Shown here in pieces: positions 6,202-50,499 of a stretch of 64,000 nt of DNA. The translations under genes and the position numbers were made by a program. This DNA is from Muriicola sp. Z0-33. GTDB taxonomy: Bacteria > Bacteroidota > Bacteroidia > Flavobacteriales > Flavobacteriaceae. The stretch is taken from NCBI RefSeq assembly GCF_026126425.1, contig NZ_JAFMPW010000003.1:62001-126000 (forward strand). Direction: 5' to 3'. Numbering within the stretch: the stretch's first letter is position 1; each line of letters begins with the position of its first letter. The notes below the pieces were generated by a model that was not told the origin of the DNA, made no database searches, and worked only from the letters and a program-made list of their open reading frames with translations.

Positions 6202-7095
6202 TTATTTTAAACCGGATGCCTCTAATTTTTTAAACAATTCTATTTGATCTTCAGTAAGCTCTGTAGGGGTTTTAATCTTATAGGTAACTATTAAATCACC
6301 AAACTCCCCTTCCTTTTTATATTTTGGAAAGCCTTTACCCTTGAGTTTTACCTGAGCCCCGTTCTGGGTGCCCGGCTTTAGCTGCAGTTTAACCTTACTG
6401 TCCAGGGTATTAATTATGATCTCACCACCCAGGACCGCCTTAATTATCGGAATTTCGACAGTTTTATAAAGATTTGCGCCATCTCTCTTAAACCGGGTAT
6501 TATTGATAAGTGAAAAAGTAATAAAAAGGTCTCCTTTAGGACCTCCGTTTATTCCTGTTCCTCCATAGCCCTTTATTTTAATGGTTTGCCCATCTTCTAT
6601 TCCGGCGGGGATGGTAATTCTAATGTTCTTACCATTTACCGTCAGGGTTCTCTTATGGGTTTGTTTAACGTCTAATAGGTTAAGTCGCAATTCCGCATTG
6701 AAATCCTGGCCGCGGAATTTAACCTGCCGCCCCTGTCCCCTAAATCCGGATGCCCCAAACATCGATTCAAAAAAATCTGAAAATTCGCTTTCCGGGCCAC
6801 CAGAGTAGGTATAAGTTCTGGATCTCCCCCTTTGCTGACCCGCTCTTCCGGCTTTTTCAAATTCGGCCGCATGTTCCCAATCCTTGCCATACTTATCGTA
6901 CTTCTTTCGTTTTTCGGGATCACTTAATACTTCATTGGCCTCATTAATCTGTTTAAACTTTTTTTCGGCCTCAGCATCGTTCGGGTTAAGATCCGGATGG
7001 TATTTGCGTGCGAGCTTTCTATAGGCTTTTTTGATATCCTTGTCCGTAGCGCGTTTATCTAACCCCAGTACATTGTAATAATCTATGAATTCCAT
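6202..7095 (-). CDS. cbpA: CbpA-like DnaJ co-chaperone
   Basis: The product has 297 residues. The J-domain occupies residues 1-70 with the HPD triad at 33-35 (KYHPDLNP). A Gly/Arg/Ser-rich linker (about 80-125) leads to the two-part DnaJ C-terminal substrate-binding domain. The cysteine-rich zinc finger of DnaJ is absent, which is the hallmark of CbpA. It would stimulate the ATPase of DnaK, and its partner CbpM is encoded next. It shares an operon with a patatin-like lipase and a TSUP permease, which suggests a stress or redox-responsive unit. Confidence 0.93.
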
Positions 7096-10129: not shown

Positions 10130-10198
10130 TTAACAAAATGTGTTAAATATTCCATAAAATGGTACCTTTTTATACATAGTACTGTAACAAAAGTGTTA
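10130..10198. promoter_or_regulatory. Two related inverted repeats upstream of the small-protein array
   Basis: TTAACA-AAATG-TGTTAA at 10130-10146 and TAACA-AAAG-TGTTA at 10185-10198 are near-copies of each other (TAACAAAATGTGTTAA and TAACAAAAGTGTTAA). Their centres are about 54 bases apart, roughly five helical turns. They look like paired operator sites for a dimeric regulator; the regulator is unknown. Confidence 0.45.
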
Positions 10199-10255
10199 AC
10201 TCCTCGTCTATTAGATGTAAGCAAAATTAAAAACAACAAAAAATATATAGAAATT

Positions 10256-10369
10256 ATGAAAGCAACATCTAATAGAACAGCAACAGAATCTAGAACAGGA
10301 CAATACTTTTCTACTTTCAGTGGAACCAAAAGAACACAATGGGCACAATTTAGAAACTATACCCGTTAA
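10256..10369 (+). CDS. Small basic protein, array member 1 (37 residues)
   Basis: ATG to TAA encodes 37 residues, beginning MKATSNRTATESRTGQYF and ending WAQFRNYTR. It is strongly basic (seven Lys/Arg against one Glu), has no Cys, no signal peptide and no membrane segment, and has an aromatic-rich second half. It is the first of three tandem paralogues 148-153 bases apart start to start. About two thirds of positions are identical in all three, and many differences fall in wobble positions, which argues for real coding sequence. I recognise no family. The charge and aromatics would fit nucleic-acid or ribosome binding, but that is a guess. Confidence 0.8.
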   Translation: MKATSNRTATESRTGQYFSTFSGTKRTQWAQFRNYTR

Positions 10370-10408
10370 TTAGAATAAAACATTTCAACAACTATAAAAT
10401 AATATATC

Positions 10409-10522
10409 ATGAAAGCAACCAACAACAGAACAGCAACAGAATCTAGAACAGGACACTACTTTTCTTCTTTTAGTGGAACCAAAAGAACACTTTGGGCCCA
10501 GTACAGAAATTACAACCGTTAA
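10409..10522 (+). CDS. Small basic protein, array member 2 (37 residues)
   Basis: This is a paralogue of member 1 with exactly the same length, ending WAQYRNYNR. Against member 1 it differs at residues 5, 16, 20, 28, 32 and 36, mostly by conservative changes (Thr/Ser, Phe/Tyr), alongside about seven silent wobble changes. A 13-base block, ACAACTATAAAAT, lies just before the start and recurs before member 3, so the duplicated unit includes its leader. There is no Shine-Dalgarno, as usual for Bacteroidota. Function unknown. Confidence 0.8.
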   Translation: MKATNNRTATESRTGHYFSSFSGTKRTLWAQYRNYNR

Positions 10523-10556
10523 TAAAAAAGAACATTAACGACAACTATAAAATATT

Positions 10557-10670
10557 ATGAAAGCAACAATCAACAGAACAGCAACAGAATCTAAAACAGG
10601 CCAGTACTTTTCTACTTTCAGTGGATCAAAAAGAACATTATGGGCTCAATACAGAAACTATAACCGCTAA
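10557..10670 (+). CDS. Small basic protein, array member 3 (37 residues)
   Basis: This is the third copy, again 37 residues, beginning MKATINRTATESKTGQYF and ending WAQYRNYNR. It shares the invariant RTATES, TGxYFS, FSG, KRT and WAQ blocks with the other two. The changes are spread evenly rather than gathered in a variable core, unlike precursor peptides that are processed. It lies 34 bases after member 2 and precedes a diverged fourth copy and a terminator, so the array looks like one transcript. Function unknown. Confidence 0.8.
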   Translation: MKATINRTATESKTGQYFSTFSGSKRTLWAQYRNYNR

Positions 10671-10680
10671 TCACGGGGAT

Positions 10681-10713
10681 ACCAATTCATCAATCAGTTT
10701 ACCAATTCATCAA
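10681..10713 (+). repeat. 13-base direct repeat with 20-base period
   Basis: ACCAATTCATCAA occurs at 10681-10693 and again at 10701-10713, between members 3 and 4 of the array. The 20-base period is about two helical turns. Confidence 0.7.
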
Positions 10714-10716
10714 CCA

Positions 10717-10842
10717 TTGAACGAACAGATCACAGAAACAATCATCAATCAATCGCCCAGGACATCTGGAAGGTTCGCTTTCCTTTCAAAACTTAAGGAT
10801 AGTAAGAGAATTCATTGGGCAGTTTCGAAACAACACCTTTAA
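10717..10842 (+). CDS. Diverged fourth member of the small-protein array, start uncertain
   Basis: The frame ending at 10842 closes with RTSGRFAFLSKLKDSKRIHWAVSKQHL when read in two parts (RTSGRFAFLSKL, then KDSKRIHWAVSKQHL). It aligns with RTGQYFSTFSGSKRTLWAQYR of the other members: S, SKR and WA line up, and the DNA aligns at TTTC..CTTTCA..GGAT and ATTGGGC. No ATG exists in this frame. The TTG at 10717 would give 41 residues; a GTG at 10621 would overlap member 3. It is either a divergent functional member or a decaying copy. A strong terminator follows 29 bases later. Confidence 0.45.
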   Translation: MNEQITETIINQSPRTSGRFAFLSKLKDSKRIHWAVSKQHL

Positions 10843-10871: not shown

Positions 10872-10907
10872 GGGACAGACCTTCATCACGTCTGTCCCTT
10901 TTTTTAT
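10872..10907 (+). terminator. Strong Rho-independent terminator closing the array
   Basis: Nine perfect base pairs (GGGACAGAC 10872-10880 with GTCTGTCCC 10890-10898) surround a nine-base loop, followed by nine T residues (10899-10907). Confidence 0.92.
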
Positions 10908-11208: not shown

Positions 11209-11591
11209 ATGAAACAGCAAAAGCAGCGCGGGAAAGGGAGAAAATATTTTATAGCCTGGTTGCGCATTGGGCTTATTATTCGTGTCTTCTTTTTTCAATT
11301 GGGGATGATTTTCCTGCCAGAAAAATGCTCAACAAGGCTATTTACCCTTTCTACCTATTGCACCAACCCGTATTAATAGTAGTGGGTTATTTCGTCCTGC
11401 AATGGGAAGTATCCCATGCATTACAGGCATTCTTAATTACTACCTTATCGCTAATAGTAATAATAGTTTGCTATTGGCTGGTAGTCAGGAGATTTAATTT
11501 GCTTAGGCTGGTAATGGGAATGAAACCAAAGGTGAAAAAGGAATTTACTACCTTAGTTACCCTTGTGAAATCTCCCGTTTTTGATAAATAA
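11209..11591 (+). pseudogene. Acyltransferase family 3 relic with its middle deleted
   Basis: Frame 1 from the ATG at 11209 reads RGKGRKYFIAWLRIGLIIRV and then FFFQLGMIFLP, the N-terminal opening of acyltransferase-3 (OafA/OpgC-like) membrane proteins (RxYxxDWLRxxA...FHxGMFF). From about 11325 a different frame reads LNKAIYPFYLLHQPVLIVVG and a last membrane segment, the family's C-terminal end. The 300 or so residues normally between are missing and the ends are out of frame, so this is an internal deletion relic. The promoter is intact, and transcription could continue into the DUF6090 gene 23 bases downstream. Confidence 0.8.
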
Positions 11592-50401: not shown

Positions 50402-50499
50402 GAAATGTAACAAAACGATACATATGACGTATTGTTACTATAAGAAATAACGTGATCTTCCGCTTTTTAGTAAAGGTCATTTTTAATATTACAACAGTA

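Follow-up and report, generated by a model that had tools for sequence, protein, structure and literature searches.

Tandem arrays of a 37-residue protein family in Flavobacteriaceae, with a candidate control site common to a membrane-stress type padR operon

PspC/Toastrack/HAAS-PadR systems have been proposed to act as membrane-stress signalling units (Ravi et al. 2024, PMC11237479); the text consulted contains neither 'small protein' nor 'short protein' nor 'Flavobacter'. Here we characterize an array of genes for 37-residue proteins within a stretch of 64,000 nucleotides from Muriicola sp. Z0-33 (contig NZ_JAFMPW010000003.1, hereafter the window). To our knowledge, no effector has been described for pspA-free systems in Flavobacteriaceae. 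Two further systems bear comparison: the Ldr/Ibs peptides of E. coli, which are hydrophobic membrane toxins with antisense RNAs, and the promoters of ECF sigma factors, which take the form TGTAAC, 16-17 nt, CGTC. The regulatory half of the array is of a known kind. For the output half, in which tiny proteins sharing a tail are encoded in arrays of their own that often close with a different member, the libraries we searched hold no match. In the open-licence PMC literature we found no description of small-protein arrays with a common tail and no match to the peptide strings, while the promoter core returned only papers that look unrelated by title. The 37-residue protein family of marine flavobacteria is apparently undescribed.

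Table 1. Features of the array and its control region in the window.
Feature	Coordinates	Strand	Basis
Conserved promoter block of 80 nt, on which model R1 is built	10143..10222	+	aligned with 40 other array promoters
21-bp imperfect palindromic operator (candidate), GTAC..GTAC	10162..10182	+	pattern searches; also at the PadR-PspC operon
ECF-sigma -35-like element, TGTAAC	10183..10188	+	sequence, alignment of 41
ECF-sigma -10-like element, CGTCTA, 16 nt after TGTAAC	10205..10210	+	sequence, alignment of 41
37-aa small basic protein, copy 1	10256..10369	+	ORF list, family profile, pN/pS
37-aa small basic protein, copy 2	10409..10522	+	ORF list, family profile, pN/pS
37-aa small basic protein, copy 3	10557..10670	+	ORF list, family profile, pN/pS
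Fourth copy, terminal subtype, ITETIINQSPRTSGRFAFLSKLKDSKRIHWAVSKQHL	10729..10842	+	profile match E 6.5e-12; ATC replaces ATG
Intrinsic terminator, 9-bp stem, 9-nt loop, T run	10872..10905	+	repeat search, RNA fold

The three tandem ORFs of the preliminary description are all present where it placed them, each encoding 37 residues with a net charge of +6, without Cys and with the sequence blocks that it named. Its count of three stands for the copies that start with ATG and falls short overall, as a fourth, divergent copy lies within the same span. The frame of this fourth copy is open, and it is akin to the last copies of other arrays. It carries ATC at 10729-10731, the position at which ATG stands in the 17 terminal copies of relatives compared (those with NQ near the start), and may use a rare non-AUG codon for initiation or have lost its start codon, perhaps recently; in another array (L074), one inner copy also lacks ATG where it is expected. 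A repeat search returned a single family, with 153-nt units at 10253, 10406 and 10554 that show 81% and 73% identity to the first. The differences among copies 1-3 are mostly silent, with pairwise pN/pS of 0.22, 0.21 and 0.16 (uncorrected Nei-Gojobori proportions). These ratios bear out the earlier suggestion that selection acts on the protein, as does the value of 0.169 over 436 pairs of relatives (>= 75% identity; changes by codon position 1793/1876/6300), which is far below 1 and only rough because pS, at 0.61, is near saturation.

The array had also been described as one unit closed by a strong terminator, which agrees with the stem-loop of Table 1 (RNA fold -15.9 kcal/mol, z -5.80); a terminator scan with a loop limit of 8 does not contain it, its loop being 9 nt. 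Further 3' lies an apparently broken gene remnant, acyltransferase-like by eye (window 11209-11591, +; ORFs of 55 and 88 aa); the related proteins at six other loci have 363-396 aa.

A search of the same genome revealed a second array of three on contig C22 and a singlet on C1, at 6238-6345 of the fetched neighbourhood L120, with an ECF sigma gene (4399-4989 of L120) some 1.2 kb away. A match at C1:129705 is weak (E 0.26), and one on C44 was rejected as a member, lying within a longer, 151-aa ORF. With this second array, the singlet and many more in relatives, the window array is more than chance. Among 299 sampled Flavobacteriaceae genomes, 46 hold profile matches at E <= 0.01, the own genome included and some of them weak; in a phylum-wide sample, matches at E <= 0.001 occur in 4/395 genomes, again including the own one, and all four are Flavobacteriaceae. 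Named hosts include Maribacter, Croceivirga, Allomuricauda, Arenibacter, Pricia, Ulvibacterium, Croceitalea, Zeaxanthinibacter and Saonia flava. Homologues with a conserved frame are found in many genera, and the 37-aa family is a Flavobacteriaceae family. The 143 profile matches fall into 69 arrays of 1-5 copies, counted over 67 sequences (the window and 66 fetched neighbourhoods).

The family had been called unrecognised, and none of the libraries searched holds a match: there is no family match in Pfam, NCBIfam, PHROGs or PDB, the best stray matches being DUF3528 (E 0.029, 1/22 members), bPH_1 (E 0.073), a PHROG (E 0.16) and a PDB entry (E 0.48), and no Rfam match for the window region (E <= 1) or for four other loci (gathering scores). 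An incidental role for the ORFs within a functional RNA would suit the short units, the conserved promoter and the strong terminator. It sits badly with a pN/pS of 0.17 and the dominance of third-position changes, with the lack of any Rfam match at these five regions, and with the folding of the array RNA, which is about that of shuffles (z -0.51, 20 shuffles); we therefore regard it as extremely improbable, and the genes as very probably translated.

The residues F18, S19, S24, K25, R26, W29 and R33 are kept in >= 90% of 62 aligned members, and 24-aa short variants retain the C-terminal part alone (MRTTIFNNSKRVRWSAHRNYAIKS). The proteins are basic, with a mean net charge of +6.1 over 130 members (range 2-10), of which 13 contain Cys. 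AlphaFold2 places a short helix at 25-35 in a model too weak for fold comparison (pLDDT 66.3, pTM 0.29). In line with the preliminary description, which saw neither signal nor membrane segment, no hydrophobic stretch is apparent in the sequences by eye. An amphipathic membrane helix was considered and rejected, as the hydrophobic moment equals that of shuffles in the 37-aa class (mean z -0.05 and 0.14) and in a 28-aa class introduced below (-0.04 and -0.55); for this reason plain membrane insertion is not favoured either.

These properties might fit stress-induced RNA- or ribosome-binding proteins, whose basic aromatic C-terminal helix would bind rRNA or mRNA and lower or protect translation under envelope stress, with the tandem copies providing stoichiometric amounts. 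The net charge, +6.1 in the family and +5.65 over 60 copies of the 28-aa class, speaks for such binding, as do the missing amphipathic signal and the lack of a hydrophobic segment by eye. Against it, the sole PDB profile match is to a methylase chain (E 0.48) and not to a ribosomal protein, and the operator described below ties the array to an operon of membrane-stress type. We consider this explanation doubtful.

The leader had been described as promoterless-looking, a view that no longer holds: an ECF-like core with an adjoining operator begins 78 nt 5' of the first ATG. By k-mer enrichment, the block upstream of the arrays reads TTAAATATTnnATAAAATAGTACCTTTTTATACATAGTACTGTAACA-N16-CGTCTATTA.GTGTAA, and in the window TGTAAC-N16-CGTC (10183-10210) matches the ECF-sigma consensus. 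The core AGTACTGTAACA, with <= 1 mismatch, occurs <= 1.5 kb upstream of 41/69 arrays and <= 900 nt from the matched member at 53/68 named-genome loci (a 69th locus was omitted for too little upstream sequence), which partly repeat the genomes of the 69 arrays. The mismatch test finds no core at 28/69 arrays, at least one of which (G291 C5) is still a model match (E 1.0e-10). The alignment of 41 promoters has 17 invariant columns, 8 within the 12-nt core that was used to choose the rows and 9 outside it.

In the own genome there are two full matches to the promoter model, one before each array (E 2.6e-20 in the window and 4.6e-19), both of them training rows of the model; the next match, before an FtsX-like permease, has E 0.0018. 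Two sigma-70 region 2/4 genes also have the core upstream, with spacers of 16 and 17, and favour the ECF reading only mildly, since they are near-chance matches (E 0.73 and 0.80) noticed afterwards for their genes. Elsewhere in the window, a weak ECF-type model match (50402-50444, +; E 0.32; TGTAACAAAA..CGTA) lies 55 nt 5' of a 481-aa ORF that is signal peptidase I-like by eye. A leader hairpin, TCTATTAGATGT/ACATCTAATAGA, was considered as a translational switch and dropped: its left arm lies in the -10 element and directly behind it, so that most of the arm would not be transcribed.

The promoter is better conserved than its proteins, which offers a way to find further hidden small-protein families. 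The promoter model matches 138/299 family genomes at E <= 1e-5, the own genome included and mostly with one match each, in a scan whose stricter filters lose weak matches. From 39 of these genomes we fetched 40 sites that are not known 37-aa arrays, picked down the list with gaps. At these sites the promoter mostly precedes other tiny proteins, commonly repeats of a 28-aa peptide followed by a distinct peptide of about 44 aa. The 28-aa peptide, of the type MRTLNNNQLTGTL..TKS..WNTKRRYR, is present in 60 copies at 33/40 loci, with a pN/pS of 0.274 over 331 pairs; the copies were collected by a tail pattern that presets W21 and K/R25, and N22 and R26, neither required by that pattern, are kept in 60/60. 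An ORF of 42-46 aa follows the last repeat in 22/23 loci having both, by a lenient filter that yields 38 ORFs in this size range, some of them due to chance. In one genome (G101), the promoter is followed by a 28-aa ORF ending in WNAKRRHR and a 36-aa ORF. At ten loci, an ExbD/TolR-like gene, recognised by eye, lies shortly 3' of the 28-aa array.

What these otherwise different peptides have in common is their end. A small ORF ending in W-x3-[KR]-x-[YF]-x(0,4) is found in 39/40 promoter-found loci, and the W-x3-[KR]-x-[YF] tail, which stands at a fixed distance from the stop, occurs in 81/181 small ORFs within 900 nt of the promoter compared to 3/833 control ORFs elsewhere in the same loci, 2 of those 3 being array members at a single locus (L306). 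The lone exception is L308, where the promoter precedes four near-identical 29-aa peptides of the MRTSSETKNRKQFMNSEATSLGYFKRRIA type, which lack the C-terminal W motif. Two loci (L297 and L300) bridge the 28-aa and 37-aa classes: their repeats are of the 28-aa kind, and the peptide that closes the array resembles the 37-aa family (E 7.7e-8 and 6.8e-6 among 175 ORFs). In addition, 13/41 promoter-bearing 37-aa arrays are led by an extra small ORF that carries a GW motif, e.g., METLPQYLLRPKIYFRIGFGWNTDRWYDQKAKNNKTIKN, including the own C22 array, where a 39-aa ORF with GFGW lies between promoter and array; a similar GW-motif ORF sits inside another array (L076). Because many arrays end in a unit of a distinct subtype, the array does not consist of copies alone. 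That peptides so different elsewhere keep the same C-terminal motif suggests that it serves to dock them to a single conserved partner.

The flanks of the arrays were searched for a conserved neighbour gene that might act as a partner, and this candidate was rejected: the 390 flanking proteins fall into 235 clusters, of which the largest has 10 members, and one syntenic group recurs around the 69 arrays with no general neighbour (at most 10/69 arrays for any cluster). A mobile or phage origin was likewise rejected, as no copy was found in viral contigs with peptide and promoter core queries, nor in plasmids (28-aa query only) or phages (37-aa query only). These observations bear on toxic or secreted peptides, be they a type I toxin array of the Ldr/Ibs kind, a leaderless bacteriocin or RiPP precursors. 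Tandem arrays of basic peptides of 24-45 aa would be in keeping with such a role, and the W-N-x-K tail of the 28-aa class resembles crosslinked RiPP cores. The peptides are, however, polar, with a charge of +6 and no hydrophobic segment by eye, they have no copy in viral contigs, plasmids or phages under the queries just given, and no neighbour cluster accompanies more than 10/69 arrays, although a more distant maturase may exist. A toxic or secreted function is in our view very unlikely.

The candidate operator abuts the -35 element at the array and follows the pattern GTACTWTGT-N3-ACAWAGTAC; its arms pair at a mean of 6.5 and 6.9 of 9 positions in two sets of 40 (no control computed). In the own genome, <= 2 mismatches give 4+5 matches compared to 3+2 when the pattern is reversed as a control, and we therefore count only the sites with at most one mismatch. 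These are the two arrays and a site with one mismatch at C48:40704-40724, which is followed, in order, by genes for DUF4870, DUF4440, PadR, a PspC/LiaI-LiaF-TM/Toast-rack protein and DUF2807 (Pfam). PadR is the only DNA-binding protein by Pfam among the five proteins of this operon, which has a HAAS match below the curated cut-off. At the padR operon the operator lies above a TAnnTTTG element, TATATTTG. In both places it thus occupies a position that would suit a repressor site.

The same association recurs in relatives. In 18 other genomes, nine matches to the promoter model are confined to its upstream half (model start 1-7, end 39-47, E <= 0.1; matches ending at position >= 52, e.g., G026 C4, G026 C1 and G018 C1:133349, were left out); 8/9 stand before a padR operon, recognised by similarity to the Pfam-checked one, and the ninth (G207:C7) is at a response-regulator-like gene by eye; one of the eight padR-operon loci (L350) has no operator by regex. 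The exact operator pattern has a site in 29/39 of the genomes that supplied the 40 fetched sites, with 0 for the reversed control, and the other 10/39 are without one. Of the exact non-array sites in these genomes, 8/9 are at a padR operon (7 with padR <= 1.5 kb downstream, and one, G198, before DUF4870-PadR-PspC), while the ninth (G034) lies within an rpsI-like gene by eye. Taken together, this pattern makes shared regulation of the array and the padR operon likely. It would also suit feedback ligands, i.e., peptides that adjust the response producing them by binding to PadR or to the ECF/anti-sigma pair: one operator is common to both units, exact sites elsewhere are rare, and the tail motif keeps its distance from the stop. 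Up to five copies and a different last peptide are nevertheless more than a simple ligand needs, and we judge this role unlikely.

Since its control site is common to a known type of membrane-stress operon, the array probably adds a new arm to the envelope-stress response. We propose that it is a PadR-repressed, ECF-activated envelope-stress unit whose peptides remain cytoplasmic and use the C-terminal tail for docking, a chain of sequence-derived steps that, as a whole, we hold to be evenly balanced between right and wrong. PadR would bind the 21-bp operator and thereby keep both the array and its own operon repressed. Once the PspC/Toastrack protein senses envelope stress, this repression would be lifted, and an ECF sigma factor freed meanwhile would strongly induce the array, yielding a burst of small peptides. 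The tandem copies would supply dosage, a plausible reason for their number that the preliminary description had offered, and the distinct last peptide may be a second component. In the two least certain steps, the peptides would stay in the cytoplasm, their short C-terminal helix docking onto one conserved partner, and that partner would most likely belong to the PspC/Toastrack complex at the inner membrane face. More tentatively still, and with the balance leaning against it, the peptides may form a new stress-effector class, very small and cytoplasmic, unrelated at the N terminus and alike only in a C-terminal docking tail. Their copy number would vary, they would be made from a family-wide promoter that is gated twice (PadR off, ECF sigma on), and they would act with a distinct last peptide on the PspC/Toastrack complex.

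If this holds, a membrane-stress system in much of the Flavobacteriaceae would have a dedicated output in proteins that usual gene finders overlook for their shortness. The proposal also defines a directly testable set, namely one operator, one candidate repressor, the candidate sigma genes, of which C1:142398-142988 and the gene from C48:177074 come first in this genome, and peptides that share a short tail.

Compared with known systems, the padR operon resembles the HAAS-PadR/PspC-Toastrack variants of PSP/Lia in having PadR, PspC, LiaI-LiaF-TM, Toast-rack and DUF2807, as described for pspA-free systems (PMC11237479). In contrast to these variants, the array lies outside the padR operon and its peptides match no PSP domain: the window peptides, 22 members and 8 peptides of other classes have no Pfam match to PspA, PspC, Toastrack, LiaI-LiaF-TM, SHOCT or HAAS. 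Because it encodes no PSP domain, the array is a candidate output of the regulon rather than a PSP component. With the type I toxin-antitoxin arrays Ldr/Ibs of E. coli it has in common tandem, similar ORFs of similar length, yet the window-family peptides are polar and basic and have a dedicated stress-type promoter. Its -35, spacer and -10 fit ECF-sigma promoters of the TGTAAC-N16/17-CGTC type, from which it differs by adding a conserved upstream part of ~40 bp that carries the operator of the padR operon.
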